Assembly (NCBI GenBank): GCA_018268595.1
Contig: JAFDWH010000001.1
Location: forward strand, 124,001-188,000
DNA length: 64,000 nt
Source: Actinomycetota bacterium
Lineage (GTDB): Bacteria > Actinomycetota > Thermoleophilia > Solirubrobacterales > Solirubrobacteraceae
Direction of reading: 5' to 3'
The notes under the pieces: model-generated
What the model was told of the DNA's origin: nothing
Database searches by the model: none
The model's input: the letters and a program-made list of their open reading frames with translations, nothing else
Part shown: positions 926-62,508 of the stretch, piece after piece
Layout of the letters: each line of letters begins with the position of its first letter
How positions within the stretch are numbered: position 1 is the first letter of the stretch
Position numbers and translations under genes: made by a program

Positions 926-1264
926 ATGGGAGACGAGACACTTCTCGTCGCACTGCTGGGCGGTCTCCATCTGCTCGGCTTCGGCTTCGCCGCTGTGCTG
1001 CTGCTCCCGCTGTTGCGCGACGAACGGATCGTCCCAGCGCGCCGCGGCGAGGACGAGGACGAAGGCGGCGGCGGCAACGACCGCGTCGGGCCGACGCCGC
1101 GCCCCGGCCCGCGCGGCGGCGGCATCCCGCTGCCGGACGCGGTGCCCGCGCGCGTGCGCCTGCGCGAGCCCGCCCGCCTCGCCGACCTCCTGCCCGCGCC
1201 GCGCCGTCGTCGCGAGCATGCGCCCGCGCCGCTGCCGACGCGCACGCCGGCGCGGACGCGTTAG
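926..1264 (+). CDS. Small membrane-anchored hypothetical protein
   Basis: The 112-residue protein has one hydrophobic segment near residues 6-27 (LVALLGGLHLLGFGFAAVLL), then an acidic/Gly stretch and a Pro/Arg-rich tail of low complexity. I do not recognise a family. A -10-like TACGCT lies at 914-919, only 6 bases before the ATG, so the mRNA may be leaderless. It overlaps the 3' end of the convergent GH2 gene by 4 bases. It is likely a single-pass membrane protein with a cytoplasmic basic tail. Function is unknown. Confidence 0.6.
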   Translation: MGDETLLVALLGGLHLLGFGFAAVLLLPLLRDERIVPARRGEDEDEGGGGNDRVGPTPRPGPRGGGIPLPDAVPARVRLREPARLADLLPAPRRRREHAPAPLPTRTPARTR

Positions 1265-7356: not shown

Positions 7357-7395
7357 CCCGCCGGCGCCCGACCGACTTTCTGGTAGGAATCGACC

Positions 7396-19473: not shown

Positions 19474-19509
19474 CGCCCGATTGTACGGCGCGGACTATCG
19501 TGATCCGCC

Positions 19510-20877
19510 ATGCGCACGCTGCCGGAGCTGCGGTCGATCGTCGGCGAGGCGGGGCTTCGCGACGCCGACGACGCGCGCTTCTGGCGCGACGCGACCGAGG
19601 CGCAGGGGCTGAGCGGCCGGCCCGACGCGGTCGTGCTGCCGGCCACGCGCGAGGAGGTCGCCGCGGTCGTCGCGTGGTGCTACGCGCACGACGTCGCGAT
19701 CGTGCCGCGTGGCGGCGGCTCGGGCTTCTCCGGCGGCTGCGTGCCGGTCGACGGCGGCGTTGTCGTCGCGCTCGACCGCATGACGCGGGTGCGCGCGTTC
19801 GACCCGCTGCTGTGGCGCATCCACGTCGAGGCCGGCCTGCGCACGAGCGAGCTGCGCCGGCTCGCGCGCGAGAACGGTCTCCTCTTCCCGCCCGACCCGG
19901 GCGCCGCCGAGCAGTCGCAGATCGGCGGGAACGTCGCGACGAACGCCGGCGGCCCGCACGCCTTCAAGTACGGCGTCACCGGACGCTGGGTGACCGGCCT
20001 CGAGGCGGTCGTCGCGCCCGGCGAGCTGATCGAGGTCGGCGGTCCGCTGCGCAAGGACGTCGCCGGCTACGACCTGAAAGGCCTGCTGATCGGCTCCGAG
20101 GGGACGCTCGGAATCGTCACCGCCGCCTGGCTGCGGCTGGTGCCGGCGCCCGCGGCGGCGATCCCGGTCGCCGCCGTCTACCGCCACGCGCGCGACGGCT
20201 GCGCCGCGCTCGAGCGGGTGCTCGGCAGCGGGCTGGAGCCGGCCGCGCTCGAGTTCCTCGACGCCGGCGCGCTCGCGGCCGCGCGCGACGCGTTCCCGTC
20301 CGCGCTGCCCGGCGACGCCGCGTTCATGCTGCTGACGGAGGCCGACGGATCCGCCGAGGAGGCCGCGCGGCTCGCCGGCGAGCTGCGCGAGGCGCTCGCC
20401 GAGGGAGCGCTCGCCGTTCACGCCCCCAAGGGGCCGGCCGAGACGGCGGCGCTGTGGCGCTGGCGCGACGGCGTCTCGATCGCCGTGACGGCGCAGCGCG
20501 GCGGCAAGATGAGCGAGGACGTCGCGGTGCCGCTCGACCGCCTCGCCGAGGCGATCGAGGCGACGCTGGAGATCGGCGCGCGCCACGACCTCGACGCCTG
20601 CAGCTGGGGCCACGCCGGCGACGGCAACCTGCACGCGACGTTCCTGCTCGACCGGCGCGACCCGGCGCAGGTCGCGCGCGCGGAGGCCGCGGCCGTCGAG
20701 CTGTTCCAACTGGCCGGCCGGCTCGGCGGGACGATCAGCGGCGAGCACGGCCTCGGCTGGGTCAAGCGCGGGCACCTCGGCGAGCAGTGGAGCCCCGCCG
20801 CGCTGCGGCTGCACGCGGCGATCAAGCGGACGCTCGACCCGAAGAACCTGCTGAACCCGGGCAAGAAGACGGGCTGA
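19510..20877 (+). CDS. FAD-linked oxidase, GlcD / D-lactate dehydrogenase type
   Basis: The 455-residue enzyme has the VAO/PCMH FAD-binding domain (VPRGGGSGFSGGCVPVDGGV; PPDPGAAEQSQIGGNVATNAGG) and the C-terminal FAD-oxidase cap with WGHAGDGNLHATF and SGEHGLGWVKR. Family members oxidise D-2-hydroxyacids such as glycolate or D-lactate to 2-oxoacids. No GlcE or GlcF partner is adjacent, so it may act alone or with distant subunits. TATCGT at 19496-19501 is 8 bases before the ATG. Divergent PucR regulator next door. Confidence 0.88.
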   Translation: MRTLPELRSIVGEAGLRDADDARFWRDATEAQGLSGRPDAVVLPATREEVAAVVAWCYAHDVAIVPRGGGSGFSGGCVPVDGGVVVALDRMTRVRAFDPLLWRIHVEAGLRTSELRRLARENGLLFPPDPGAAEQSQIGGNVATNAGGPHAFKYGVTGRWVTGLEAVVAPGELIEVGGPLRKDVAGYDLKGLLIGSEGTLGIVTAAWLRLVPAPAAAIPVAAVYRHARDGCAALERVLGSGLEPAALEFLDAGALAAARDAFPSALPGDAAFMLLTEADGSAEEAARLAGELREALAEGALAVHAPKGPAETAALWRWRDGVSIAVTAQRGGKMSEDVAVPLDRLAEAIEATLEIGARHDLDACSWGHAGDGNLHATFLLDRRDPAQVARAEAAAVELFQLAGRLGGTISGEHGLGWVKRGHLGEQWSPAALRLHAAIKRTLDPKNLLNPGKKTG

Positions 20878-41280: not shown

Positions 41281-42918
41281 ATGGCCGTCGCGCCGCCACG
41301 CGCGTCGCACGCGACGCACACCGTCACCAACCAGCCGCCGCCGCTCGAGGGGCTGAACCTGTTCGAGTGCAACCGGCCGCTGGTCGAGGCGCTCGAGCGC
41401 GAGGGCGCCGGCTGGGGCGCGGCGAACGCCTCGGCCGTCGGCGAGCTGGCGGGCTCGGAGGGGATCCGCCTCGGCTTCGAGGCGAACGACAACCCGCCGA
41501 GACTGAAGACGCACGACCGCTTCGGCAACCGCGTCGACCAGGTCGAGTTCCACCCGTCGTGGCACCGGCTGATGGAGAGCAGCGTCGCGCACGAGGCGCA
41601 CGCGCTGCCGTGGCGCACCGAGCGCCCCGGCGCGCACGCGGTGCGGGTCGCGATGTCGCTCACCGGCGGTCAGGTCGAGGCCGGCCACGGCTGCCCGATC
41701 ACGATGACGTTCGCGGCGATCCCGGCGCTGCGCGCGGAGCCGGACGTGCTGGACGTGTGGCAGCCGCGCCTGACGTCGACGACGTACGACCCGCGCGACG
41801 TGCCGGCCGACGAGAAGGCCGGCGCGCTGTGCGGCATGGGCATGACGGAGAAGCAGGGCGGCTCCGACGTGCGCACGAACGCGACCGTCGCGACGCAGGT
41901 CGGCGACGGCTGGGAGCTGGTCGGCCACAAGTGGTTCACCTCGGCGCCGATGTGCGACCTCTTCCTCGTCCTCGCGCAGGTCGAGGGCGCGGGGATCTCG
42001 TGCTTCGCGATGCCGCGCTGGCGGCCGGACGGCGAGCGCAACGCGTTCCAGCTCCAGCGCCTGAAGGACAAGCTCGGCAACCGCTCGAACGCGTCGAGCG
42101 AGATCGAGTTCCGCGGCGCCTGGGCGCAGCCGGTCGGCGAGCCGGGGCGCGGCGTGCCGACGATCATCGAGATGGTCAACCACACACGGCTCGACTGCGT
42201 CGCCGGCTCGGCCGCCGGGATGCGCTGGGCCGTGTCGCTCGCGACCCACCACGCCGCCTACCGCAGCGCGTTCGGCAAGCTGCTGATCGAGCAGCCGCTG
42301 ATGACGAACGTGCTCGCCGACCTGTGCGTCGAGTCGGAGGCCGCGACGCTCTCCGCGATGCGCCTCGCGCGCGCGTACGACGAGCGTGACGACGCCTTCA
42401 AGCGGATCGCGACGGCGGTGCTGAAGTACTGGGTCTGCAAGCGCACCGCGCCGCACGCGGCCGAGGCGCTGGAGGTGCTGGGCGGCAACGGCTACGTCGA
42501 GGAGTCGGGCATGCCGCGGCTCTACCGCGAGGCGCCGCTGAACTCGGTGTGGGAGGGCTCGGGGAACGTCATGTGCCTCGACGTGCTGCGCGCGCTGATC
42601 AAGGAGCCGGAGACAGGCGCCGCATTGTTCGCCGAGCTGGACGAGTCGGCCGGCGCGGATCCGCGGCTGGACGCGCACGTCTCGAAGCTCCGCGCGGAGC
42701 TGGCGGACCTGGCCGCCATCGAGGCACGGGCGCGGCGGATCGTCGAGGCGATCGCGCTGGCGCTGCAGGGCTCGCTGGTCGTCCGCCATTCACCACGCGA
42801 GGTCGCAGAGGCGTTCTGCGCCTCGCGCCTCGCCGGCGACGCCGGGCACGCGTTCGGCACGCTCCCGCCTCGCGTGGACTTCCGCGCGATCGTGGAGCGG
42901 CATCGGCCTTCGCTGTAG
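41281..42918 (+). CDS. aidB: AidB-type acyl-CoA dehydrogenase homologue
   Basis: The 545-residue flavoprotein parallels E. coli AidB along its length: THTVTNQPPPLEGLNLF, GAGWGAANASAVGELAGS, CPITMTFAAIPALR, GMGMTEKQGGSDVRTNAT, LKDKLGNRSNASSEIEF, LGGNGYVEESGMPRLYREAPLNSVWEGSGNVMCLDVLR. The catalytic Glu of the family lies in WEGSGN. AidB binds DNA and is linked to alkylation damage. Whether this one is induced by alkylation cannot be read here; no Ada site is seen. Confidence 0.92.
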   Translation: MAVAPPRASHATHTVTNQPPPLEGLNLFECNRPLVEALEREGAGWGAANASAVGELAGSEGIRLGFEANDNPPRLKTHDRFGNRVDQVEFHPSWHRLMESSVAHEAHALPWRTERPGAHAVRVAMSLTGGQVEAGHGCPITMTFAAIPALRAEPDVLDVWQPRLTSTTYDPRDVPADEKAGALCGMGMTEKQGGSDVRTNATVATQVGDGWELVGHKWFTSAPMCDLFLVLAQVEGAGISCFAMPRWRPDGERNAFQLQRLKDKLGNRSNASSEIEFRGAWAQPVGEPGRGVPTIIEMVNHTRLDCVAGSAAGMRWAVSLATHHAAYRSAFGKLLIEQPLMTNVLADLCVESEAATLSAMRLARAYDERDDAFKRIATAVLKYWVCKRTAPHAAEALEVLGGNGYVEESGMPRLYREAPLNSVWEGSGNVMCLDVLRALIKEPETGAALFAELDESAGADPRLDAHVSKLRAELADLAAIEARARRIVEAIALALQGSLVVRHSPREVAEAFCASRLAGDAGHAFGTLPPRVDFRAIVERHRPSL

Positions 42919-50442: not shown

Positions 50443-52566
50443 ATGAAGACGCTGCTGATCGACAACCACGACTCGTTCACCTACAACCTCGCGCAGTTGC
50501 TGGCGCAGGTCAACGGCGAGCAGCCGCACGTCGTGCGCAACGACGAGGCGAGCTGGGAGCAGATCGCGCGGCTGCCGTTCGACAACGTGGTCCTCTCCCC
50601 CGGTCCCGGCCGGCCGGAGCGCACACGCGACTTCGGCGTCTGCGCACAGGCGATCGCCGCGGCGGAGGTCCCGTTGCTCGGCGTCTGCCTCGGCCACCAG
50701 GGGATCGGCTGGCTGCACGGGGCGCGCGTCGTGCACGCGCCCGAGCCGATGCACGGCCGTATCAGCGCGGTGCTGCACGACGACGCGCCGCTGTTCGCCG
50801 GCATCCCACGCGAGTTCCAGGCGGTCCGCTACCACTCGCTGTGCGTCGAGCAGCCGCTGCCGGACGCGCTCCGGCCGCTTGCGTGGACGAGCGACGGCGT
50901 GCTGATGGCGCTCGCGCACCGCACGCGGCCGCTGTGGGGGGTGCAGTTCCACCCGGAGTCGGTCTGCGCCGAGCACGGCCGGCGGCTGCTGGAGAACTTC
51001 CGCGACCTGACGGCGGCGCACGGCGGCCGGGGCCGCCCGGCGACGGCGCGCGCGCCGCGCTCGCCCGCGCCGCCGCCGCAGCCGGCCGCCGCCGCGGAGC
51101 CGCGCCTGCGCCTGCTGCACGAGCGGATCGACGCGCCGGTCGACGCGGAGCGCGCGTTCGCCCACCTCTACGGCGGGCACCCGCAGGCGTTCTGGCTCGA
51201 CAGCAGCCTGCGCGACGAGCGCGCGCGCTTCTCGTTCGCCGGCGCGACCGGCGGCCCGCTGTCGGCGCTCGTCACGTACGACGTCGAGGCGGGGCGCGTG
51301 CGCGTCGAGCGCGACGGCGCAGTGGAGACGCACGGGGAGTCGATCTTCGACCACCTCGCGCGCGAGCTGCGGCGCCTGCGCACGCCCGCCGGCGCCGACG
51401 AGCTGCCGTTCGCGTTCGACGCCGGCTTCGTCGGCTACCTCGGCTACGAGTGCAAGGCCGACTGCGGCGGCGCGGCGGCGCACGTCTCGCCGCTTCCGGA
51501 CGCGGCGTTCGTGCTGGCCGATCGCCTGCTCGCGTTCGACAACCGCGAGCGCGCGACCTACGCGGTCTGCCTCGTCGCCGACGAGCCGGACGCCGTCGCC
51601 GAGGGAGCGCGCTGGCTGCGCGAGACGCGCGCGCAGCTGCTCGCGCTGCCGCCGCTCGGGCCGCCCGACGCCGCTCCCGCGGGCGAGCCGGCGCGCTTCG
51701 CGCTGCGCCGCCCGCGCGAGCGCTACCTCGAGCAGATCGCCGACTGCAAGCGGCACCTCGCCGACGGCGAGACGTACGAGCTGTGCCTCACGAACGCGAT
51801 CGACGCCGACGCCGGCGAGGACCCGTTGACGCTCTACCGCCGGCTGCGCCGCGTCAACCCCGCCCCCTTCTCGGCCTACCTGCGCTTCGGCGACGTGGCC
51901 GTGCTGAGCTCCTCGCCCGAGCGCTTCGTGTCGGTCGGGCGCGACCGCTGGGCGGAGGCGAAGCCGATCAAGGGGACGACGCCGCGGGGCGCGACGCCGG
52001 CGCAGGACGCGCAGCTCGCCGAAGCGCTGCGCACGAGCGAGAAGACGCGCGCCGAGAACCTGATGATCGCCGACCTGCTGCGCAACGACCTCGGGAGCGT
52101 GTGCGAGACCGGCACCGTGCACGTGCCCGACCTGATGCACGTCGAGCGCTACGAGACGCTCCACCAGCTCGTCACGACCGTGCGCGGGCTGCTGCGCGAG
52201 GGGCTCGACGCGGCCGACTGCGTGCGCGCGTGCTTCCCGCCCGGCTCGATGACGGGCGCGCCCAAGCAGCGCACGATGGAGCTGATCGACGCGCTGGAGG
52301 GCGAGGCGCGCGGCGTCTACGCCGGCGCGATCGGCTACTTCGGGCTCGGCGGCGGCTGCGACCTGAGCGTCGTGATCCGCACGATCGTGCTGGACGGCGC
52401 GCACGCGACGATCGGCGTCGGCGGAGCGATCGTGACGCAGTCGGACGCCGACGACGAGTTCGAGGAGATCGTCCTGAAGGGGCTGGCGCCGCTGCGCGCG
52501 ATCGACGAGCGGGTCGACGCGCGCGCGGCGTTGGCGGGGGCGACCGTTAGGCTGTCCGCCCCGTGA
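50443..52566 (+). CDS. pabAB: Fused aminodeoxychorismate synthase (PabA-PabB)
   Basis: The 707-residue protein joins a glutamine amidotransferase (about 1-195; DNHDSFTYNLAQLL, SPGPGRPE, nucleophile in LGVCLGHQGIG, FHPESV) to a chorismate-binding synthase (about 220-700; AKPIKGTTPRGATP, RAENLMIADLLRNDLGSVC, PGSMTGAPKQRTMELI, GAIGYFGLGGGCDLSVVIRTI). The linker is Pro/Ala-rich (about 195-220). It turns chorismate plus glutamine into aminodeoxychorismate for folate. The KGT..RG motif fits PabB better than TrpE. Overlaps the next gene by 4 bases. Confidence 0.93.
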   Translation: MKTLLIDNHDSFTYNLAQLLAQVNGEQPHVVRNDEASWEQIARLPFDNVVLSPGPGRPERTRDFGVCAQAIAAAEVPLLGVCLGHQGIGWLHGARVVHAPEPMHGRISAVLHDDAPLFAGIPREFQAVRYHSLCVEQPLPDALRPLAWTSDGVLMALAHRTRPLWGVQFHPESVCAEHGRRLLENFRDLTAAHGGRGRPATARAPRSPAPPPQPAAAAEPRLRLLHERIDAPVDAERAFAHLYGGHPQAFWLDSSLRDERARFSFAGATGGPLSALVTYDVEAGRVRVERDGAVETHGESIFDHLARELRRLRTPAGADELPFAFDAGFVGYLGYECKADCGGAAAHVSPLPDAAFVLADRLLAFDNRERATYAVCLVADEPDAVAEGARWLRETRAQLLALPPLGPPDAAPAGEPARFALRRPRERYLEQIADCKRHLADGETYELCLTNAIDADAGEDPLTLYRRLRRVNPAPFSAYLRFGDVAVLSSSPERFVSVGRDRWAEAKPIKGTTPRGATPAQDAQLAEALRTSEKTRAENLMIADLLRNDLGSVCETGTVHVPDLMHVERYETLHQLVTTVRGLLREGLDAADCVRACFPPGSMTGAPKQRTMELIDALEGEARGVYAGAIGYFGLGGGCDLSVVIRTIVLDGAHATIGVGGAIVTQSDADDEFEEIVLKGLAPLRAIDERVDARAALAGATVRLSAP

Positions 52567-53507
52567 CTGCGCTCGTGACCGGCGGGGCCGGCTTCATCGG
52601 CTCGAACCTCGTCGACGCGCTGCTCGCGCAGGGCGAGCGCGTCGCCGTCGTCGACGACCTCTCGACCGGCCGCCGCGAGAACCTCGACGGCGCGCTCGCG
52701 GCGGGCGCCGTGCTGCACGAGCTCGACGTGACCGACGCGGCCGCGCTGCGCACGCTGATGGAGGCCGAGCGGCCGCAGGTCGTCTTCCACCTCGCCGCGC
52801 AGATCGACGTGCGGCGCTCCGTCGAGGATCCCGTCGCCGACGCGCGCATCAACGTCGAGGGCACGATCAACGTGCTGGCGGCGGCGCACGCGGCGGGCGT
52901 GCGGCGGGTCGTCTACTCGGCGACCGGCGGCGCCGTCTACGGCGAGGCCGAGCAGGTGCCGACGCCGGAGGACGCGCCCGAGCGCCCGCTCGCCCCCTAC
53001 GGCCAGTCGAAGCTGGCGGGCGAGGGCTACTGCGGGCTGTTCGCGCGCCTGCACGGCCTCTCGACGATCGCGCTGCGCTACGCGAACGTCTACGGCCCGC
53101 GCCAGGACCCGCTCGGCGAGGGCGGCGTGATCGCGATCTTCTGCGGCTGCGTCGCCGAAGGGCGCACGCCGACGATCTTCGGCGACGGCGAGCAGACGCG
53201 CGACTTCGTCTACGTCGGCGACGTCGTCGCGGCGAACCTCGCCGCGGCCGCCTCGACGTTGACGGGCTCCTACAACGTCGGGACCGGCGTCGAGACGTCG
53301 GTCCTCGAGCTGGTGGAGACGCTCGACGCGCTCGAGCTGGGGCCGCCGCTCGCGCCCTGCCACGCGGACGAGCGCGCCGGCGAGGTGCGCCGCAGCTGCC
53401 TCGACGCGACGCGGCTGCGCGACGCGCTCGGCTGGTCGGCGGCGACGTCGCTGGCCGACGGGCTGCGCCAGACGGTCGCCGCTATAGTGCCCGCCGGACC
53501 GTGCTAG
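52563..53507 (+). CDS. galE: NAD-dependent sugar epimerase (UDP-glucose 4-epimerase-like)
   Basis: The 314-residue extended SDR starts at GTG 52563 (VTALVTGGAGFIGSNLVDALL). It has VFHLAAQIDVRRSVEDPVADARINVEGTINVL, the Ser/Tyr/Lys triad in YSATGGAVYGE and PLAPYGQSKLAGEGYC, and RYANVYGPRQDPLGEGGVIAIF. It probably interconverts UDP-glucose and UDP-galactose or related sugars for surface glycans. It overlaps pabAB as GTGA, and its last bases overlap the SRP RNA gene, whose promoter lies inside it. Confidence 0.9.
   Translation: MTALVTGGAGFIGSNLVDALLAQGERVAVVDDLSTGRRENLDGALAAGAVLHELDVTDAAALRTLMEAERPQVVFHLAAQIDVRRSVEDPVADARINVEGTINVLAAAHAAGVRRVVYSATGGAVYGEAEQVPTPEDAPERPLAPYGQSKLAGEGYCGLFARLHGLSTIALRYANVYGPRQDPLGEGGVIAIFCGCVAEGRTPTIFGDGEQTRDFVYVGDVVAANLAAAASTLTGSYNVGTGVETSVLELVETLDALELGPPLAPCHADERAGEVRRSCLDATRLRDALGWSAATSLADGLRQTVAAIVPAGPC
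53483..53488 (+). promoter_or_regulatory. -10 box of the SRP RNA gene
   Basis: TATAGT lies 7 bases before the predicted 5' end of the SRP RNA and within the last codons of the epimerase gene. Confidence 0.65.
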
Positions 53508-53768
53508 GCGGGGAGGTAGCGGTGCCCTGTACCTGCAATCCGCTCTAGCAGGGCTGAATCCCCTCTCGAGGGGCGCCGGCTTCCGAGGCGGCGCGCTGCG
53601 TGGAGGCGTTGACGGCGAGGTCCCGCGCGGTGACGGCCCGCGAACCAGGTCAGGTCCGGAAGGAAGCAGCCTTAAACGGTCTCCGTCACGCGTAGCGGGA
53701 GTGCCTCGCCCGAGCCGAAGCCGGTGGCGCGCTCGGGAACCCGCCTCGACGGAGGGTGCACGGTCCGA
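53496..53768 (+). ncRNA. ffs: Signal recognition particle RNA, large (Alu-domain) type
   Basis: The 5' part GTGCTAGGCGGGGAGGTAGC and the following GTGCCCTGTACC...GCAATCCGCTCTAGC match the Alu domain of long bacterial SRP RNAs. The S-domain core CAGGTCCGGAAGGAAGCAGCC with its GGAA tetraloop is at about 53652. The ends pair: GGACCGTGC (53496-53504) with GCACGGTCC (53758-53766), and GGCGGG with CCCGCC. The RNA is about 270 nt. It scaffolds Ffh in targeting membrane proteins. GAGCTTT follows the closing stem. Confidence 0.93.
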
Positions 53769-53878: not shown

Positions 53879-54124
53879 ATGAGCTCAGAGATCCGGAAGA
53901 TCATCGCCGAGCACGCGCACCTCTCGGTCGACGTCGACTCGCTCGCCGATGACGCGAACCTCTACCAGGCCGGGATGACCTCGCACGCGAGCGTCAACCT
54001 GATGCTCGCGCTGGAGGACGCGTTCGACATCGAGTTTCCCGACAGCATGCTGACGCGCAGCGTGTTCGAGAGCGTCGCGGCGATCGAGGCGGCGCTGACC
54101 CAGCTGCAGGCGGCGGCGGCATGA
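53879..54124 (+). CDS. Acyl-carrier-type protein (substrate of the amino acid ligase)
   Basis: The 81-residue helical protein MSSEIRKIIAEHAHLSVDVDSLADDANLYQAGMTSHASVNLML has the phosphopantetheine site in AGMTSHASV, with Ser35 as the attachment residue instead of the fatty-acid DSL motif. It continues ALEDAFDIEFPDSMLTRSVFES. The TS(H/F)A site and the neighbouring ligase gene fit the small carrier proteins charged with amino acids by SerRS-like ligases. It is the first gene of the operon, and the stop overlaps the next ATG (ATGA). Confidence 0.9.
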   Translation: MSSEIRKIIAEHAHLSVDVDSLADDANLYQAGMTSHASVNLMLALEDAFDIEFPDSMLTRSVFESVAAIEAALTQLQAAAA

Positions 54125-55293
54125 GCGTCGCGGTCGAGGCCGACCAGGCGTTCCTCGACGCGATCCGCCGGATCGCCGACGAGGCCGCCGCGCCGAACGC
54201 CGACTCCGTCGACCGCGAGGCCCGCTTCCCCGTCGAGGCGGTCGACGCGCTGCGCGCCGAGCGCGCGCTGTCCGCGCTGATCCCGACCGAGCTGGGCGGC
54301 GGCGGCATCTCGTTCGAGGCGGTCGCGCAAGCGTGCTTCGAGCTCGGTCGCCGCTGCGGCGCGAGCGCGATGGTGTTCGCGATGCACCAGATCCAGGTCG
54401 CGACGATCGTGCGCCACCTCGACGGCTCCGACTGGTTCGAGGGCTACCTGCGCAGCGTCGCCGACGAGCAGCGCCTGATCGCGTCGGTCACCTCGGAGGT
54501 CGGCACGGGCGGCGACATGGCCCGCTCGATCGCCGCCGTCGAGCCGAACGGCGACGGCCTCGGCCGCTTCGAGAAGCAGGCCCCCACGGTCAGCTACGGC
54601 CACCACGCCGACGACCTGCTGACGACGCTGCGCCGCTCGCCGGACGCCGAGCCCGGCGACCAGGTCTGCGTGCTCACGAGCAGAGACCAGCACGCGCTGG
54701 AGCCGACCGGCACGTGGGACCCGCTCGGGATGCGCGGGACCTGCTCGCCCGGCAACGTGGTGCGCGCCGAGTTCCCGCTCGAGCAGGTTCTGAGCGCTCC
54801 GTTCGCACAGCAGATGAACGAGTCGATGGTGCCGATCTCGCACGTCCTGTGGTCGCAGCTGTGGCTCGGGATCGCGACCGACGCGTTCGACCGCGCGCGC
54901 GCCTTCGTGCGCGCCGCCGCGAAGAGAACGCCGGGCGAGACGCCGCCGTCGGCGATCCGCCTGTCGGAGCTGATGAGCGAGCTGTCGCTGCTGCGCGCCG
55001 AGGTCGCGACCGGCCTGCGCGACTTCTGCGACGTGCCCGAGGACGACCGCGCCCGGCTGTCGGAGATGAAGACGATCCTGCGCTTCAACAACCTCAAGAT
55101 CGCCGCGTCCGAGCAGGCGCCGCGCGTCTGCCAGAAGGCGATGGCGGTGTGCGGCATCGTCGGCTTCAAGAACGACACGCCGTTCAGCGTCGGCCGCCAT
55201 CTGCGCGACACGATGTCCGCCTGTCTGATGGTCGCCAACGAGCGCATCCACAAGACGGACGCGACCCTGCTGCTGATCGCCAAGGACGTCTAG
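54121..55293 (+). CDS. Acyl-CoA-dehydrogenase-like flavoprotein
   Basis: The 390-residue protein follows the ACAD layout: helical N-domain (FPVEAVDALRAERALSALIPTELGGGGISFEAVAQACFELGRRCG), a beta middle domain (IASVTSEVGTGGDMARSIAAVE) and a C-terminal helix bundle. The usual C-terminal catalytic Glu motif (YEGTSQI-like) is replaced by ACLMVANERIHKTDATLLL, so the base may differ. Coupled to the carrier protein gene, it plausibly oxidises a carrier-bound acyl or aminoacyl group with FAD. The true substrate is unknown. Confidence 0.85.
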   Translation: MSVAVEADQAFLDAIRRIADEAAAPNADSVDREARFPVEAVDALRAERALSALIPTELGGGGISFEAVAQACFELGRRCGASAMVFAMHQIQVATIVRHLDGSDWFEGYLRSVADEQRLIASVTSEVGTGGDMARSIAAVEPNGDGLGRFEKQAPTVSYGHHADDLLTTLRRSPDAEPGDQVCVLTSRDQHALEPTGTWDPLGMRGTCSPGNVVRAEFPLEQVLSAPFAQQMNESMVPISHVLWSQLWLGIATDAFDRARAFVRAAAKRTPGETPPSAIRLSELMSELSLLRAEVATGLRDFCDVPEDDRARLSEMKTILRFNNLKIAASEQAPRVCQKAMAVCGIVGFKNDTPFSVGRHLRDTMSACLMVANERIHKTDATLLLIAKDV

Positions 55294-55295
55294 CC

Positions 55296-56240
55296 GTGGC
55301 GGAGTACCGGCCGGGCGACGCGGAGCAGACCGCCTTCCTGCAGGAGCTGGTCGGCGCCGGCCTGCTGATCGAGAGCGGCATCCCGGGCGTCTACGGCCGC
55401 GGCGAGCAGTTCGAGCGCGTGCGCTGGGCGTTCGACCGGCTCGTGACGCGCGCCGGCGACGGCGACGCGCCCGAGCGGATGGCGTTCCCGCCGGTGCTGC
55501 CGCGCAGACAGCTCGAGCGGATCGGCTACCTCAACTCGTTCCCGCATCTCGCCGGCTCGCTGTTCTCGTTCGACGGCGACGAGGACCAGGCGGCCGAGCA
55601 GGCGGCGCGCGCGAGCCGCCACGAGGACTGGAGCGGGTTCCAGTCGCAGACCGACCTCGTGCTGACGCCGGCCGCCTGCTACCCGGTCTACCCGGCGGTC
55701 GCCGCGCGCGGCCCGCTGCCGCCCGGCGGCGTCACGGTCGACGCCGGCGGCTCGTACGTCTTTCGCAACGAGCCGAGCGGCGATCCGGCGCGCCTGCAGA
55801 TGTTCCACCAGCGCGAGATCGTGCGGATCGGCGAGCCGGACGCGGTCGCCGCCTGGCGCGACACGTGGCGCGACCGCGCCGTCGCGCTGCTCCGCTCGGT
55901 CGGGCTCGACGCCGGCTTCGACGTCGCCAACGACCCGTTCTTCGGCCGCAGCGGCCGGCTGCTCGCGCGCAGCCAGCGCTCGCAGGAGCTGAAGTTCGAG
56001 GTGCTCGTGCAGATCGCCGGCCCGGAGCCGACCGCGGTGGCCTCCTTCAACTATCACCAGGACCACTTCTCCGGCACGTACGGGATCACGGTGCGCAACG
56101 GCGGCGGCGAGCCGCAGCCCGCGCACACCGCGTGCCTCGGCTTCGGCCTCGAGCGGATCACGCTCGCGCTGCTGCGCACGCACGGGCTCGACGTCGACGC
56201 GTGGCCGGCGACGGTGCGGGAGGAGCTGGCGCTCGCATGA
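55296..56240 (+). CDS. Amino acid:[carrier protein] ligase (SerRS-like, class II)
   Basis: The 314-residue protein starts at GTG 55296. Class II motifs are visible: motif 2 SYVFRNEPSGD (R157, E159) and motif 3 CLGFGLERITLALL. The zinc ligands fall at C128 (TPAACYPVYP), E174 (HQREIVRIG) and C280 (HTACLGFG), at spacings like those of atypical SerRS and Bradyrhizobium Bll0957. No tRNA-binding domain is present. Known homologues activate glycine or alanine with ATP and load it on the phosphopantetheine of a small carrier protein, which here is the first gene of the operon. Confidence 0.92.
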   Translation: MAEYRPGDAEQTAFLQELVGAGLLIESGIPGVYGRGEQFERVRWAFDRLVTRAGDGDAPERMAFPPVLPRRQLERIGYLNSFPHLAGSLFSFDGDEDQAAEQAARASRHEDWSGFQSQTDLVLTPAACYPVYPAVAARGPLPPGGVTVDAGGSYVFRNEPSGDPARLQMFHQREIVRIGEPDAVAAWRDTWRDRAVALLRSVGLDAGFDVANDPFFGRSGRLLARSQRSQELKFEVLVQIAGPEPTAVASFNYHQDHFSGTYGITVRNGGGEPQPAHTACLGFGLERITLALLRTHGLDVDAWPATVREELALA

Positions 56241-57214
56241 GCAGCGTGGCCGGCACCGGCCTCGTCAGCCTGCTCGGCCTCGACCCGGCCGCCTACCGGC
56301 CGCACGCGCTGCACGCGACCGACCGCACCTACCTCGAGACGAACTGCTACACGGACATCCTCATCGAGTTCCTGCACGCGCGCGGGGACGAGCCGCTGGC
56401 GATGATGGGGTGCGTGCTGCGGGTCGACTTCGAGGGCGACCAGTGGACCTTCTTCAAGCCGCTGCCGGAGGACGTCGAGCGGCTCTACGGCGTCGACGTC
56501 CACGAGATGCAGCCGTACCGGCCGCTGCCGGACCAGATCGCCGAGCAGATCGCGCGGGGGCGCACGCTCATCGTCGAGCTGGACTCGTTCTACATGCCCG
56601 ACGTGGCGGCGACCTCCTACCGCACCGCGCACGTCAAGAGCAGCGTCGTGGCCGAGGCGATCGACCGCGACGGCGAGCGCTTCCGCTACTTCCACGGCCC
56701 CGGCTACTTCGAGCTGTCGGGCGAGGACTACCGCGAGATCTTCCGCCTCGGGCGCGAGTTCTCGCCCGACGTGCTGCCGCCCTACACCGAGATCGTGCGG
56801 CTCGACGCCGGCCCGCGCCTGCGCGGCGAGGAGCTGCGCGCCGCCGCGCGCGAGCTGCTCGCGCGCCACGTCGCGCGGCGGCCTGAGCCGAACCCGTTCC
56901 TGCGCTTCGGCGCGCAGCTCGCGGAGGACCTGCCGCGGCTCGCGCAGGGCGACGCGCAGGGCTTCCACGACTACGCGTTCGCGACCGTGCGGATGGTCGG
57001 CTCGGCGTTCGAGGTCGGCGCCTCGCACGTCGACTGGGTGCTCGGCGCCGAGGGCGCGGCGGCGTCGGACGCGATGACGCGGATCGTCGAGGGCTGCAAG
57101 CTGCTCGGCTTCAAGCTCGCGCGCCGCCGCCCCTTCGACGCCGAGCCGGCGGTCGCCGAGCTGGCCGCCGCCTGGGAGGACGCGTTCGCGGCGCTGGACG
57201 GTGCGCTTGGCTGA
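56237..57214 (+). CDS. DUF1839 family protein, candidate aminoacyl transferase
   Basis: The 325-residue protein opens SSVAGTGLVSLLGLDPAAYRPHALH and has ETNCYTDILIEFLHARGDEPLAMMGC, ELDSFYMPDV and YRTAHVKSSVV. The order Cys37, Asp116, His132 and the spacing resemble the papain-like BtrH N-terminal family, which moves an acyl group from a carrier protein to an amine. The last 120 residues are helical (LRFGAQLAEDLPRLAQGD). The function of DUF1839 is not established. Its ATG overlaps the ligase stop, which supports a shared pathway. Confidence 0.85.
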   Translation: MSSVAGTGLVSLLGLDPAAYRPHALHATDRTYLETNCYTDILIEFLHARGDEPLAMMGCVLRVDFEGDQWTFFKPLPEDVERLYGVDVHEMQPYRPLPDQIAEQIARGRTLIVELDSFYMPDVAATSYRTAHVKSSVVAEAIDRDGERFRYFHGPGYFELSGEDYREIFRLGREFSPDVLPPYTEIVRLDAGPRLRGEELRAAARELLARHVARRPEPNPFLRFGAQLAEDLPRLAQGDAQGFHDYAFATVRMVGSAFEVGASHVDWVLGAEGAAASDAMTRIVEGCKLLGFKLARRRPFDAEPAVAELAAAWEDAFAALDGALG

Positions 57215-59825
57215 GGCGGCCGCGCCGCCCGCCCGCGTGCGCGTGGACGGGCATCTGCGGCAGCCGTTGGAGGAGGGCTGGGAGGCCGCCTCCTGCGCGC
57301 CCGACGCGCACGCCGATCCCGCCGCGGCCGGCGCGACGCTCGCGTGGCACCCGGCGCGGGTTCCGGGCACCGCCGCCGCCGTCCTGCGCGACGCCGGCGC
57401 GTGGCGCCCCGGCGAGCCGGCGCCCGACCTCGACGCGCACGACTGGTGGTTCCGCACGCGCTTCGACGCCGCGCCGGCCGCCGACGGCGAGCAGGTCGTG
57501 CTCGCGCTCGACGGGATCGCGACGGTGGCGGAGGTCTTCCTCAACGGCGAGCGCGTGCTGGAGAGCGAGTCGATGTTCACCGCCCACGCGCTCGACGTCG
57601 GCGGGCTGCTGCGCGCCGGCGCGCCGAACGAGCTGGCGATCCGCTGTCGCGCGCTCGCGCCGCTGCTGACGGTGCGGCGCAGACCACGCGCGCGCTGGCG
57701 CACGAAGCTGGTGGACGGCAACCTGCGCTGGTTCCGCACGATGCTGCTGGGCCGCGCGCCCGGCTTCGCCCCGGGGCCGGCCGCGGTCGGGCCGTGGCGG
57801 CCGGTGCGCCTGGAGCGGCGCCGCGCGCTCGCGGTCGAGGTGGGGGCGCTCGCCCCGTGGCTCGACGGCGACGTTGGCGTGCTGGCGCTGCGCGCGAGGC
57901 TGCGCGCGCTCGACGGCGTCGCGCTGGAGGCGGCCGAGCTGGAGCTGGCGGGGCCGTCCGGCGCGCACCGCGCGCAGCTCGCGCTCGCGCCGGCCGGCGC
58001 CGTCGGCACGGTCGAGCTGCACGGCGAGCTGCGCGTCGCGGACGTCGCGCGCTGGTGGCCGCACACGCACGGCGAGCCGGCGCTGCACGACGTGCGCGTG
58101 CACGTGACGCGCGCGGGCGGCGGCGCGCCGCTGACGGTCGCGCTCGGCCGCACCGGCTTCCGCACGCTCTCCCCCGGCCCGTCGCCTGACCACGACGTCG
58201 AGCGCGACGGGCTCTCGCTGCACGTCAACGGCGTGCCGCTGTTCGCGCGCGGCGCGATCTGGACGCCGGCCGACTTCGTCACGCTCGCGCCGGACGAGGC
58301 CACGCTGCGCCGCGCGCTCGAGCAGGTGTGCGACGCCGGCATGAACGTCGTGCGGATCCCCGGCACCGGCGCGTACGAGTCGCCCGCCTTCCACGACCTC
58401 TGCGACGAGCTGGGGATCCTCGTGTGGCAGGACATGGCGTTCGCCAACCTCGACTATCCGATCGCCGACGAGCGCTTCCGCGCGACGGTCGCGGCGGAGG
58501 TCGCGCAGGTGCTCGGCGAGGCCGGCGGACGCCCCAGCCTCGCGGTCGTGTGCGGCAACAGCGAGGTCGAGCAGCAGGTCGCGATGCTGGGGCTCGACCC
58601 CGCGCTCGGCCGCGGCGAGCTGTTCGGCGAGCTGCTGCCGGACGCGGTCGCCGCGGCGCCCGGCGTGGACGCGGTCTACGTGCCCTCCGCGCCGAGCGGC
58701 GGCGAGCTGCCGTTCCGCAACGACCGCGGCGTCGCCCACTACTTCGGCGTCGGCGGCTACCGCCGCCCGCTCGACGACGCGCGCCGCGCCGGCGTCCGCT
58801 TCGCGGCCGAGTGCCTCGCCTTCTCGAACGTCCCCGACGAGGCCGGCGTGACGGCGGCGCTGCCGCAGGCGCCCGCCGGCGTCGGTCACGACCCGCGCTG
58901 GAAGGCGGGGGTCCCGCGCGACGCCGCCACGAGCTGGGACTTCGAGGACGTGCGCGACCACTACCTGCACGAGCTGTTCGGCGTCGACCCGCTCGCGCTG
59001 CGCGCGGCCGACCCGGAGCGCTGGCTGGAGCTGGGGCGCGCCGTCACCGGCGAGGCGATGGCGGAGGTCTTCGGCGAGTGGCGCCGCGCCGACTCGCCGT
59101 GCGCCGGCGGGATCGTGCTGTGGCTGCGCGACCTCGTGCCGGGCGCCGGCTGGGGGCTGGTCGACCACGCCGGGACGCCGAAGGCCGCCTACCACCACCT
59201 GCGTCGCGCGCTCGCGCCGGTCGCGGTGTGGACGACGGACGAGGGCCTCAACGGCATCCGCGTGCACGTCGCCAACGACCGCGCGGAGCCGCTGCGCGCG
59301 CAGCTGCGCGTCGCGCTCTACCGCGACGGCGAGCAGCGCGTCGCCGAGGCGAGCGCGACGCTCGAGCTGGGACCGCACGCGACCGCCGAGCGCGACGTCG
59401 AGGCGCTGCTCGGGCGCTTCGCCGACGCCTCCTACGCGTACCGCTTCGGGCCGCCGCCGCACGACGCGATCGTCGCGAGCCTCGAGCGGGACGACGGCGC
59501 GCCGCTCGCCCGGACGCTCCGGTTTCCGGCTGGAAGGCCGCTGACCGTCGAGCCACCGGAGCGGCTCGGGCTCGAAGCGCACGTCTCCGCACAGGACGCC
59601 GACGCGCCGACGGTCGTTGTGCGCAGCACGCGAGTCGCGTACGGTGTCCGCGTGCATGCAGGCGGGTTCGACGCAGAGGACGATGCGTTCACGCTGGAGC
59701 CTGGGATCGCGCACAGCGTGCGGCTGCGTCCGCGCGCGCCGGGGGCGACCTTCGCGGGGGCGGCGTTGAGCGCGCTCAACGCGCGCGGCCTGGTGCGCGT
59801 CGAGACGGCGCCGGAGGAGCGCTGA
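57201..59825 (+). CDS. Glycoside hydrolase family 2, beta-mannosidase-like
   Basis: The 874-residue protein starts at GTG 57201, overlapping DUF1839 by 14 bases. It has a sugar-binding domain (HDWWFRTRFDA, DGIATVAEVFLNGERVLESESMF), Ig-like domains and a TIM barrel with FARGAIWTPAD, the acid/base in VVCGNSEVEQQ (usual GNNE or GNSE) and the nucleophile region RFAAECLAFSNVP. No signal peptide is present, so it acts in the cytoplasm or is modified otherwise. In this operon it may trim or transfer a glycan that receives the amino acid. Confidence 0.85.
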   Translation: MRLAEAAAPPARVRVDGHLRQPLEEGWEAASCAPDAHADPAAAGATLAWHPARVPGTAAAVLRDAGAWRPGEPAPDLDAHDWWFRTRFDAAPAADGEQVVLALDGIATVAEVFLNGERVLESESMFTAHALDVGGLLRAGAPNELAIRCRALAPLLTVRRRPRARWRTKLVDGNLRWFRTMLLGRAPGFAPGPAAVGPWRPVRLERRRALAVEVGALAPWLDGDVGVLALRARLRALDGVALEAAELELAGPSGAHRAQLALAPAGAVGTVELHGELRVADVARWWPHTHGEPALHDVRVHVTRAGGGAPLTVALGRTGFRTLSPGPSPDHDVERDGLSLHVNGVPLFARGAIWTPADFVTLAPDEATLRRALEQVCDAGMNVVRIPGTGAYESPAFHDLCDELGILVWQDMAFANLDYPIADERFRATVAAEVAQVLGEAGGRPSLAVVCGNSEVEQQVAMLGLDPALGRGELFGELLPDAVAAAPGVDAVYVPSAPSGGELPFRNDRGVAHYFGVGGYRRPLDDARRAGVRFAAECLAFSNVPDEAGVTAALPQAPAGVGHDPRWKAGVPRDAATSWDFEDVRDHYLHELFGVDPLALRAADPERWLELGRAVTGEAMAEVFGEWRRADSPCAGGIVLWLRDLVPGAGWGLVDHAGTPKAAYHHLRRALAPVAVWTTDEGLNGIRVHVANDRAEPLRAQLRVALYRDGEQRVAEASATLELGPHATAERDVEALLGRFADASYAYRFGPPPHDAIVASLERDDGAPLARTLRFPAGRPLTVEPPERLGLEAHVSAQDADAPTVVVRSTRVAYGVRVHAGGFDAEDDAFTLEPGIAHSVRLRPRAPGATFAGAALSALNARGLVRVETAPEER

Positions 59826-59826
59826 G

Positions 59827-60636
59827 GTGAGCGCCCCGGCCGAGCCCGGCGCGAGCGACGGCACCACGGCGCAGGCGCTCGTCGGCGAGGAGCTGTGGGC
59901 GCACGGCGACAACGTCGCCGAGTACGCGAACCGCGAGCTGCGGCCGGTCGAGGTGCTGCTGCTCGTGCGCTACCGCGACGTGCTGTCCGGTCGCGTGCTC
60001 GAGCTCGGCTGCGGCGGCGGACGCCTGACCGGCTACCTCGCCGAGATCGGGACGGTCGAGGCGATCGACGTCTCGCCGGCGATGGTCGAGTACACGAACC
60101 GCCGCTATCCGCGCACGCGCTGCCGGCAGGGCGACATGCGCGACCTGTCGGCGTGGGAGAGCGGCTCGCTGGACGCGATCGTCGCCGGAGCGAACGTGCT
60201 CGACGTGCTCGACCACGCGGGCCGTCACGCAGTCCTCGACGAGCTGCGCCGGCTGCTGGCGCCCGACGGCCTGCTGATCTTCTCCGCGCACAACGCCGGC
60301 TCCAAGGACTCGATCCCCTCGCCCTTCGGCGTCGTCAAGTCGCGCAATCCGGCGCGGATGGCGCGCAACGTCGTCCTGCTGCCGCGTCGCGTCGGCAACC
60401 GCCGGCGCCTGCGCCGCTTCGAGCAGGTCGAGGGCGACCACGCGATCCTCAACGACGAGGCGCACGACTTCTCGATCCTGCACTACTACATCGAGCGCGA
60501 CGCCCAGGCTGCCCAGCTCGCCGAGCATGGGCTGAAGCTGGTCGAGTGCCTCGACCTCGACGGCGCCGTCGTCGCGCCCGGCGAGCACGCACCGCACACG
60601 CACGAGCTGCATTACGTGGCGCGGCACGGACCGTAG
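59827..60636 (+). CDS. SAM-dependent methyltransferase
   Basis: The 269-residue class I methyltransferase starts at GTG 59827. SAM motif I is VLELGCGGGRLTGYL, followed by VEAIDVSPAMVEYTNRRYPRT and motif IV SLDAIVAGANVLDVLDHAG. The last 100 residues are specific (RRFEQVEGDHAILNDEAHDFSILHYYIERDAQAAQL). It may methylate a sugar, amine or carrier-bound group in this pathway. The gene follows the GH2 stop by one base. Substrate unknown. Confidence 0.87.
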   Translation: MSAPAEPGASDGTTAQALVGEELWAHGDNVAEYANRELRPVEVLLLVRYRDVLSGRVLELGCGGGRLTGYLAEIGTVEAIDVSPAMVEYTNRRYPRTRCRQGDMRDLSAWESGSLDAIVAGANVLDVLDHAGRHAVLDELRRLLAPDGLLIFSAHNAGSKDSIPSPFGVVKSRNPARMARNVVLLPRRVGNRRRLRRFEQVEGDHAILNDEAHDFSILHYYIERDAQAAQLAEHGLKLVECLDLDGAVVAPGEHAPHTHELHYVARHGP

Positions 60637-60684: not shown

Positions 60685-62508
60685 ATGACGAAGGTTGCAG
60701 GGGCCCGCGCCCAGTACCTCGGGGGGACGCCGGGCGATCGCAGCTTCGCGCTGCTGCACGAGCCGGACGCGGCGGCGCCCGCGCGCGACGTGGCGGTGTT
60801 GCTGTGCTCGCCGTTCGGCAACGACGACCTGTGCACGTACCGGGTGCGGCGGGAGTGGGCGCAGCAGCTCGCGGCCGCCGGCTTCGCGACGCTGCGCGTC
60901 GACCTGCCGGGCTGCGGCGACGGCGAGGGCGGTCCGCGCGACCCCGGCCGCGCGGCGGCCTGGACGCAGGCGCTCGACGGCGCGGCGCGCTGGCTGCGCG
61001 CGCAGACCGGCTGCGCGCGCGTCGCCGCGCTCGGCATCGGCCTCGGGGGCCTGCTCGCATGCGAGGCCGCGAGCGCCGGGGCGCCGATCGACGACCTCGT
61101 GCTGTGGGCCGTGCCGGCGCGCGGCCGCACGTTCGTGCGCGAGCTGCGCGCGCTCGCGCGGCTCGAGGCGGCCAACGACACGGCGGCGGCGGCGCAGTCG
61201 GACGACGGCGCGCTGGCGAGCGCCGGCTACGTGCTGTCGGCCGAGACGCTCGCCGCGCTCGAGGCGCTCGACCTCGCGCAGCGAACGCTGCCGGACGGCA
61301 CCGCCCGCCGCGCGCTGCTGCTGGAGCGCGACGGGCTCGCGCCCGACCCGCGCCTGCGCACGATGCTCGACGAGGCCGGCGTCGCGGTGACGGTCGCCCC
61401 CGGCCCCGGCTACGGCACGATGGTCGCCGAGCCGCACCGCGCGCTGGCGCCGCGCGAGGTGTTCGAGACGGTCGCCGCGTGGCTCGCCGAGCCGGCCCCG
61501 GCGTCCGCGCCGCACACGGACGCGGACGCGGCCGCTCCCCCGCCGGCCGAGGAGGCGCTGGAGCTGGTCGTCGACGGGACGCCCGTCCGCGAGACGCCGT
61601 TCGCGATCGCGCGGCCGTCGGGCGAGCTGTTCGCGCTGCTGAGCGAGCCGGCGGAGGGGGAGCGCGCGCCGCTCACGCTGCTGCTGCTGAACGCCGGCGC
61701 CCAGCGCCACATCGGACCGAACCGCATGTGGGTCGAGATCGCCCGCCGCTGGGCCGCGCGCGGCGTGCCGGTCGTGCGCGTCGACCTGCCCGGCATCGGC
61801 GACGCGCAGGGCGAGGACGACGCGTGGGGCGACGACGAGGGCTTCTACGTCGAACGCTTCACCGACGACACGCTCGCAGTGCTCGACGCGCTCCAGGCGC
61901 GCGGGCTGCCGCCGCGCTTCGTGCTCGGCGGCCTCTGCTCCGGGGCGTACTGGTCCTTCCACGCCGCGCTGCGCGACGAGCGCGTCGCGAGCGCGCTGAT
62001 GCTGAACTCGCGCGCGCTGTTCTGGGACCACGGGCTCGACGCGCGGCGCGAGGCGCGCAACGTCAGCAAGGTCGTCAACCCCGTCACGTGGCTGAAGCTG
62101 CTGCGCGGCCGCATCACGCGCGAGCGTGCGCGGCTCGTGCTGCGCTCGGCGCTCGACGCGCTGCTCGGCCTGCCGGCGCGGCTCGCCGCGCATCGCCGCA
62201 GGCGCGTCGCCGGCGACGAGCTGGCGCACGCGCTCGACGTGCTGGAGGCGCGGGCGACGGCGCTCGTCGCCGTCTTCACGGCCTCCGAGCCGCTGCTCGA
62301 CGAGCTGGAGCGCAGCGGCAAGCTCGCGCGCATGCGCGAGCGGACGCACGTGTGGGTGGAGGCGATCCCCGGTCCGCTCAGCTCGCACACGCTCGAGCCG
62401 CTGCCGTTGCAGGGGGCCGTCCACGGGATCGTCGACGACGCGCTCGAGCGGGAGCTGGCGCGCGCAGGCGGACCGGCGGACGCGCGCGCGCAGGAGGCGC
62501 TGCGATGA
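60685..62508 (+). CDS. Double alpha/beta-hydrolase, exosortase-system-hydrolase-like
   Basis: The 607-residue protein contains two alpha/beta-hydrolase domains. In domain 1 (about 1-275; AVLLCSPFGNDDLCTYRVRREWAQQL) the nucleophile elbow is GIGLGG, with Gly where Ser should be. In domain 2 (about 290-590; LNAGAQRHIGPNRMWVEIARRWA, RVDLPGIGD) it is GGLCSGAYWS, with Cys as possible nucleophile. The pattern resembles the paired hydrolases found with exopolysaccharide and exosortase loci. It may hydrolyse or transfer a carrier-bound thioester. The stop overlaps the deacetylase ATG. Confidence 0.8.
   Translation: MTKVAGARAQYLGGTPGDRSFALLHEPDAAAPARDVAVLLCSPFGNDDLCTYRVRREWAQQLAAAGFATLRVDLPGCGDGEGGPRDPGRAAAWTQALDGAARWLRAQTGCARVAALGIGLGGLLACEAASAGAPIDDLVLWAVPARGRTFVRELRALARLEAANDTAAAAQSDDGALASAGYVLSAETLAALEALDLAQRTLPDGTARRALLLERDGLAPDPRLRTMLDEAGVAVTVAPGPGYGTMVAEPHRALAPREVFETVAAWLAEPAPASAPHTDADAAAPPPAEEALELVVDGTPVRETPFAIARPSGELFALLSEPAEGERAPLTLLLLNAGAQRHIGPNRMWVEIARRWAARGVPVVRVDLPGIGDAQGEDDAWGDDEGFYVERFTDDTLAVLDALQARGLPPRFVLGGLCSGAYWSFHAALRDERVASALMLNSRALFWDHGLDARREARNVSKVVNPVTWLKLLRGRITRERARLVLRSALDALLGLPARLAAHRRRRVAGDELAHALDVLEARATALVAVFTASEPLLDELERSGKLARMRERTHVWVEAIPGPLSSHTLEPLPLQGAVHGIVDDALERELARAGGPADARAQEALR

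Follow-up and report, generated by a model that had tools for sequence, protein, structure and literature searches.

The closest described relatives of the locus analysed here are the ligase Bll0957 and the Atu2571 carrier protein (PDB 3mey, 4h2w). In 2022, the biological function that amino acids serve on such carrier proteins was still called unknown (PMC9437257), which agreed with the statement in an earlier, sequence-only reading of this DNA that no end product had been established. The gene neighbourhood was described in a 2010 note in proof, which predicted that Atu2574 forms an amide on a surface sugar (PMC2922099). The gene set (ACP, redox enzyme, conserved uncharacterised protein, and glycosidase) and the proposed chemistry were the same as those considered here. 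However, that prediction rested on neighbourhoods only, and the present analysis added structural evidence on the proposed transferase, the conservation of active sites, the whole operon, and the exchange of the loading enzyme. Three other systems are comparable. CcbC/CcbZ/CcbD (LmbC/LmbN/LmbD) follow the same logic, in which an adenylating enzyme, a carrier protein, and a Cys-dependent condensing enzyme couple an amino acid with an amino sugar; the lincosamide synthetase CcbD moves the carrier-bound amino acid via a cysteine onto the sugar amine. However, their sequences were unrelated to ours at search level, the order of catalytic residues differed, the Ccb condensing step uses no flavoprotein or GH2 enzyme, and an adenylation domain takes the place of the SerRS-like ligase. 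The Dlt system (DltA/DltC/DltB/DltD) likewise places a small amino acid on a small carrier protein, for envelope decoration. However, DltB (MBOAT) and DltD were absent from our module, with a proposed cytoplasmic Cys transferase in their stead. EPS loci of the Exosortase A (XrtA/PEP-CTERM) type, which contain ligase_PEP_1 and hydrolases 1 and 2, have related double hydrolases next to a carrier protein and an adenylating enzyme; however, our hydrolase scored under the TIGR cut-offs, and no exosortase was seen in the window, by which we mean the whole stretch of 64,000 nucleotides analysed.

The operon in the window was composed of the following genes.

53879..54124, + strand: small carrier protein (CP) with attachment Ser35 (PF00550, NF005480)
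54121..55293, + strand: flavoprotein of the acyl-CoA-dehydrogenase fold without the canonical catalytic Glu (PF02771/PF00441)
55296..56240, + strand: SerRS-derived amino acid:[carrier protein] ligase, GTG start (NF005479, Bll0957 match)
56237..57214, + strand: DUF1839 protein, proposed CP-to-amine aminoacyltransferase with Cys37/His153 (PF08893)
57201..59825, + strand: GH2 beta-mannosidase-like protein, catalytic E455 and E537 kept (6byc match)
59827..60636, + strand: SAM methyltransferase, optional member (PF13649)
60685..62508, + strand: fused double alpha/beta-hydrolase (TIGR03101 and TIGR03100, below cut-off)

The four genes at 53879-57214 were joined as the sequence-only reading had described, with an ATGA overlap between CP and flavoprotein, a 2-base gap (bases 55294-55295) between flavoprotein and ligase, and an ATGA overlap between ligase and DUF1839. 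That reading had called the four genes a complete pathway, a description that the data did not support as worded. The operon extended to 62508 with three more genes, the GH2, methyltransferase, and double hydrolase genes, and a phosphopantetheinyl transferase, present in the operons of relatives, was not found within the window. A dedicated AcpS-like transferase was observed in 34 of about 90 loci. No flavin reductase or ETF gene was found in the operon.

Sequence, fold, and neighbourhood together suggested that the operon encodes carrier-protein-dependent aminoacyl transfer, with loading, modification, and DUF1839-mediated transfer to an amine, and we give this reading a probability of about 60%. 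The SerRS-derived ligase would activate a small amino acid with ATP, possibly Gly or Ala by analogy, and load it onto the phosphopantetheine of the CP. The flavoprotein would then alter the tethered aminoacyl group, probably by oxidation. DUF1839 would accept the acyl group on Cys37 and then, as CcbD does, form an amide with an amine that is probably carried by a sugar. The GH2 enzyme and the Cys-type hydrolase may act on the resulting glycoside or acyl product, trimming it or processing it further. The sequence-only reading had envisaged activation, possible oxidation, and transfer of an amino acid; the analysis supported aminoacyl loading on the CP, the presence of an oxidation-type enzyme, and a transfer reaction. 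Both the gene association and the prediction of amide transfer date from 2010, so the operon is a further case of that predicted pathway. The new elements are the structural evidence on DUF1839 and the finding that the loading enzyme has been replaced more than once.

Conservation was counted in 47 well-covered (full) DUF1839 loci. The CP was present in 46 of these loci, the flavoprotein in 44, the ligase in 43, GH2 in 46, and the hydrolase in 36, and the gene set spanned at least eight bacterial phyla. In a Burkholderiales sample, DUF1839 was found in 6 of 250 genomes, and all six had an adjacent ligase (p 2e-11 for co-occurrence). In Hyphomicrobiales, CP, flavoprotein, and DUF1839 were present at 29 of the best 30 ligase loci. 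The association of CP, flavoprotein, ligase, and DUF1839 is not due to chance. Its absence from related genomes had been named as a refutation of the sequence-only reading, and the association survived this test in both orders.

The CP scored 116.6 bits against NCBIfam NF005480 (cut-off 72) and also matched PF00550, and the nearest solved structures were 4h2w_C and 2jq4 (Atu2571), with E 1e-19. The ligase scored 399.5 bits against NF005479, 'amino acid--[acyl-carrier-protein] ligase' (curated cut-off 357), and matched Bll0957 (4h2w) with E 5e-77 to 8e-79. It shared with the Bll0957 system the ligase family, the zinc triad, and the type of CP partner; however, its sequence was far from identical to those of the characterised enzymes. 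The residues picked out from the sequence were borne out in relatives. Ser35 was kept in 80/80 CP relatives, and the zinc triad, which aligned with that of Bll0957, was kept at C128 (77/77), E174 (74/77), and C280 (77/77). Of type-2 SerRS, the 314-aa ligase aligned with the catalytic part alone (residues 311-508 of 3w3s). This meant that the ligase had no tRNA-binding domain, again as had been read from the sequence.

The loading enzyme has been repeatedly replaced. A stand-alone DltA-like amino-acid adenylation protein was found in 5/5 genomes with a ligase-less module and in 0/30 ligase-bearing genomes (p 3e-6). With the protein from the Reinekea genome of locus L091, encoded at 18768-20315 of that locus on the minus strand, as query, copies of 56-57% identity were found in the other four ligase-less genomes, and the best match in the 30 ligase-bearing genomes reached 38% and 313 bits. 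In an independent sample of 313 genomes, the adenylation protein occurred in two; both also had DUF1839, and one of the two was new. The exchange between the SerRS-like ligase and this orthologous protein required four or more changes on the tree; the sign test alone was not significant because there were only four independent tree pairs. In three of the five ligase-less genomes, the adenylation gene lay far from the module. Four of the five were MAGs, and the genome-wide check of ligase absence was made without G1113. Incompleteness of the MAGs was rejected as the reason for the missing ligase, since the flavoprotein and DUF1839 genes lay side by side in these genomes and the same substitute appeared in every case. 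The specificity positions, read by eye at what we take to be the GrsA positions, were identical in all six adenylation proteins (D-N-F-F-L/I-A-M-V-D-K) and matched no specificity code that we could name. The amino acid specificity of this protein should match that of the ligase. If the proposed pathway is correct, the exchange is a natural experiment on which amino acid the system uses.

DUF1839 scored 320.9 bits against PF08893 (Pfam gathering score 22.5), the only Pfam family at E<=0.001, and BtrH_N (PF14399) was not matched. Sequence searches of the PDB, single and profile, gave no matches, and only the fold search succeeded. With the predicted model (pLDDT 95), AziU3, CtaG, and CcbD were the only Foldseek matches in the PDB with E<1e-3, and CcbD was matched at 16% identity and a TM of about 0.6. 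C37 was kept in 88/89 relatives and H153 in 90/90. The Cys-His-Glu order of the CcbD triad was not found; instead, Cys37, Thr/Ser135-136, and His153 were present, as in PMC10318531. This residue order and the low identity to CcbD speak against the proposed role. The fold matches and the conserved residues led us to propose DUF1839 as a CP-to-amine aminoacyltransferase acting via Cys37. The 2010 sugar-amide prediction is now testable with the CcbD template, Cys37/His153, and a second, independent loading enzyme.

The fold and flavin-binding domains of the flavoprotein were of the acyl-CoA dehydrogenase type (Pfam PF02771/PF00441, AlphaFold model with pLDDT 95.6, Foldseek). We judge it rather unlikely that the protein works as a normal dehydrogenase, in which case the pathway would end in a dehydroamino or imino acyl group, comparable to the chemistry of prolyl-carrier-protein dehydrogenases. 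Profile matches did include acyl-CoA dehydrogenases, among them a prolyl-ACP dehydrogenase (4irn), and the structure matches contained both dehydrogenases and flavin monooxygenases. However, the position presumed to correspond to MCAD Glu376 (371) was always Val/Ile, so that the dehydrogenase Glu was lost, and the alternative position, which we take to be that of IVD Glu254 (240-241), was Ser/His, with His241 in 79/81. The best single-sequence PDB match was the sugar N-oxygenase KijD3, which also argues against a dehydrogenase. TdsC, KijD3, DnmZ, and dehydrogenases scored alike, and neither sequence profile nor fold told an oxygenase from a dehydrogenase. Oxygenation of the tethered aminoacyl group, possibly on nitrogen, seemed more likely than classical alpha,beta-dehydrogenation.

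The GH2 protein matched the beta-mannosidase 6byc with E 1e-45. Its acid/base and nucleophile Glu were kept in relatives (E455 in 68/72, the rest Asp; E537 in 72/72). The sequence-only reading had also linked the operon to glycan genes. As written, this was not supported by the window, where a search for an EPS or glycan cluster around the operon revealed, besides GH2, only an upstream epimerase (52563-53507) and scattered envelope genes, and the link came mainly from relatives. EPS-type genes were located within 10 kb of 18/47 full loci, a raw count without a control rate at random loci, and an XrtA/PEP-CTERM FemAB gene was present in one locus (L152). A literature search for an EPS role of this gene set gave no hits. 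We considered it unlikely that the product of the module is a small diffusible molecule, either an aminoacylated glycoside or another secondary metabolite, on which GH2 and the hydrolase act, rather than a cell-surface glycan. CcbD, CtaG, and AziU3 all come from antibiotic pathways, the GH2 sequence has no obvious signal peptide, and a Priestia plasmid cluster pairs the CP-flavoprotein-ligase trio with exporter, alanine racemase, D-Ala-D-Ala-ligase-like, and ATP-grasp genes, as would fit a small metabolite. However, the conserved spread over eight phyla and the EPS-type neighbours look more like structural modification. Tentatively, and with less confidence than in aminoacyl transfer itself, we suggest a pathway in at least eight phyla that places an oxidised aminoacyl amide on a sugar, in which a class-II aaRS-derived ligase and one particular DltA-like adenylation protein have replaced each other at the loading step four or more times. 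If so, it would be a widespread amino-acid decoration of bacterial glycans or glycosides.

It is improbable that DUF1839 is a thioesterase or peptidase releasing the amino acid and the Cys-type hydrolase the true acyltransferase: papain-like proteins do include peptidases (PMC10318531) and the hydrolase Cys is fully conserved, but the nearest folds of DUF1839 were all CP-dependent acyltransferase-like biosynthetic enzymes, with peptidases far below, and the hydrolase was missing near 11/47 full loci. Domain 1 of the hydrolase had no nucleophile, and domain 2 carried a Cys nucleophile (GLCSG, Cys418); Cys418 and Asp367 were each kept in 51/51 relatives and His568 in 47/47 of the filled positions. 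The methyltransferase had a homologue in only 6/47 full loci.

The sequence-only reading had placed at 53879-57214 a four-gene operon loading an amino acid onto a small carrier protein (CP). The four genes and their ATGA, 2-base and ATGA junctions were located exactly at the claimed coordinates. The end at 57214 did not hold, as GH2, methyltransferase and hydrolase genes continued on the same strand to 62508.

Genes of the operon in the window
53879-54124, + strand: CP, with PF00550 and NF005480 matches
54121-55293, + strand: acyl-CoA-dehydrogenase-like flavoprotein, ATGA junction with CP
55296-56240, + strand: SerRS-like ligase, NF005479 above cut-off, 2-base junction with the flavoprotein
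56237-57214, + strand: DUF1839 protein (PF08893, 321 bits), ATGA junction with the ligase
57201-59825, + strand: GH2 protein, overlapping DUF1839
59827-60636, + strand: methyltransferase, downstream of GH2
60685-62508, + strand: hydrolase of 607 aa with two alpha/beta-hydrolase domains, last of the run

Against the Bll0957 structures, the ligase scored E about 1e-78. The residues that had been singled out were confirmed and were kept among relatives: CP Ser35 in 80/80, and ligase C128, E174 and C280 in 77/77, 74/77 and 77/77, respectively. Directly upstream of the operon, a bacterial large SRP RNA gene was detected (53499-53763, + strand, 178.9 bits), overlapping the end of an epimerase gene by 9 bases. 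Elsewhere in the window were a fused GATase and chorismate-binding protein with the amidotransferase at its N-terminus (50443-52566, +; anthranilate/aminodeoxychorismate-synthase-like), a second, distant GH2-family relative (1261-3198, -; scoring 67 bits against the GH2 profile of the module) and an AidB-type protein of acyl-CoA-dehydrogenase fold with no relation to the operon (41281-42918, +).

The annotated order CP-flavoprotein-ligase-DUF1839-GH2-hydrolase was the same in Azospirillum and Mycetohabitans plasmids. The DUF1839 loci collected spanned Actinomycetota, Acidobacteriota, Pseudomonadota, Myxococcota, Planctomycetota, Verrucomicrobiota, Gemmatimonadota and Abditibacteriota; in 47 of them, both flanks covered 7 kb or more. 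These 47 carried CP (46), flavoprotein (44), ligase (43), GH2 (46), hydrolase (36) and methyltransferase (6). An AcpS-like phosphopantetheinyl transferase was present in 34 of roughly 90 loci; none was found within the window. Since the search for these 47 had started from DUF1839 or the ligase itself, two additional samples were drawn, and the expected association of the four genes in related genomes was upheld. Among 250 Burkholderiales genomes, 6 carried DUF1839 and 7 carried a ligase scoring over cut-off; the ligase adjoined DUF1839 in 6/6 (Fisher p 2e-11), in a sample centred on one module-bearing genome, itself among the 6. In Hyphomicrobiales, where 48/249 genomes had the ligase over cut-off, CP, flavoprotein and DUF1839 lay alongside in 29 of the best-scoring 30 ligase loci, and the remaining one showed flavoprotein and ligase only in the stretch read. 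Ligases scoring below these 30 may have other neighbours. The family was rare in the window's own phylum (3/296 genomes).

Five loci (L062, L065, L081, L088 and L091) had no ligase gene between flavoprotein and DUF1839, and genome-wide searches found none elsewhere in these genomes, four of which are MAGs. All five contained an orthologous stand-alone amino-acid adenylation protein; with L091's own copy as query, the other four were 56-57% identical. The two that were scanned were DltA-like and above the TIGR01733 cut-off. In 30 genomes that have both the module and the ligase, the best match reached 38% identity (p 3e-6), and the 250 Burkholderiales gave no match at E<=1e-110. L091's host belongs to an order from which 313 genomes were sampled; two of them, that host and the new genome G1113, encoded the adenylation protein. 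Both carried DUF1839, and the third DUF1839 genome had the ligase in place of the adenylation protein. The adenylation gene lay far from the module in 3/5 ligase-less genomes; in G1113 it was about 11 kb from DUF1839, with an XrtA/PEP-CTERM FemAB gene nearby. Mapped onto the tree of DUF1839, the switch between loading enzymes took five steps, and supported branches make no fewer than four of them unavoidable. There were four independent pairs, too few for a sign test by itself to reach 0.05. Rows from truncated contigs were scored ligase-bearing by default in the larger tree, and the smaller tree held tested genomes only, plus G1113 and G1083. We read this as one loading enzyme repeatedly giving way to a second that does the same work; this is independent support that the module needs aminoacyl loading.

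The ligase and CP were clear family members by sequence, and their putative activity is carried over from the literature. For the flavoprotein, the predicted acyl-CoA-dehydrogenase-like fold was certain from the model (pLDDT 95.6). Its dehydrogenase Glu position was Val/Ile in nearly all relatives, and its nearest structures were a mixture of dehydrogenases, flavin monooxygenases and sugar N-oxygenases. The AlphaFold model of DUF1839 (pLDDT 95) matched only AziU3, CtaG and CcbD in the PDB at E<1e-3. CcbD transfers CP-bound proline to its own cysteine and from there to a sugar's amino group (PMC12945683). Cys37 and His153 of DUF1839 were kept in practically all relatives, and the active site showed the C(T/S)H order reported in PMC10318531, a paper that also guessed at a glycan role from context. 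The GH2 protein was beta-mannosidase-like with both catalytic Glu kept. The first hydrolase domain lacked a nucleophile; the second had a Cys nucleophile, which would fit thioester chemistry. In the Cupriavidus type, the in-operon DUF1839 (L009:20394-21374, -; L095:2410-3396, +) had lost the cysteine (ANRH vs TNCY). A second copy with the Cys adjoined the hydrolase gene in L009, and another DUF1839 lay elsewhere in G461, the genome of L095; these pairs look as if one copy had stayed an active enzyme and the other had become a pseudoenzyme.

The proposed link to glycan genes comes mainly from relatives, where 18/47 loci had members of one or more of four EPS-type gene families within about 10 kb (a raw count). 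In the window, GH2 and the upstream NAD-dependent epimerase were the only pointers to it. A 2010 note in proof (PMC2922099) had described an ACP, a redox enzyme, a conserved uncharacterised protein and a glycosidase around this ligase. Its prediction was that Atu2574 links the amino acid through an amide to the amine of a cell-surface sugar, and that the redox enzyme works by monooxygenation. From that description and the locus numbering (CP is Atu2571), we infer that Atu2574 is the DUF1839 protein. Our reading, arrived at independently, agrees with this prediction. The window thus adds a new member to a predicted system whose role a 2022 review (PMC9437257) still called unknown. As far as the searchable literature shows, the additions made here are the structural support for DUF1839 and the exchange of one loading enzyme for another.

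Other contexts were also observed. On a Priestia aryabhattai plasmid (L010, 2805-18692), CP, flavoprotein and ligase occurred as a trio, with no DUF1839, in what is likely a biosynthetic cluster. Its other genes were those for AcpS, a DMT exporter, DdaF-like ATP-grasp and D-Ala-D-Ala-ligase-like genes, cysteine desulfurase, alanine permease and alanine racemase, which suggests an alanine-derived product with self-protection. Flavoprotein-ligase pairs without DUF1839, in L113 (G456, 5695-8585; with a divergent CP, and an esterase and acyl-CoA ligases adjoining) and L147, are a second context for the ligase. An Exosortase-A-like stretch adjoins the module in L064 (378-7182). It contains a stand-alone adenylation domain together with separate hydrolase genes and two acyl-CoA-dehydrogenase-like genes, one of them RedW-like, and is a possible parallel CP system.
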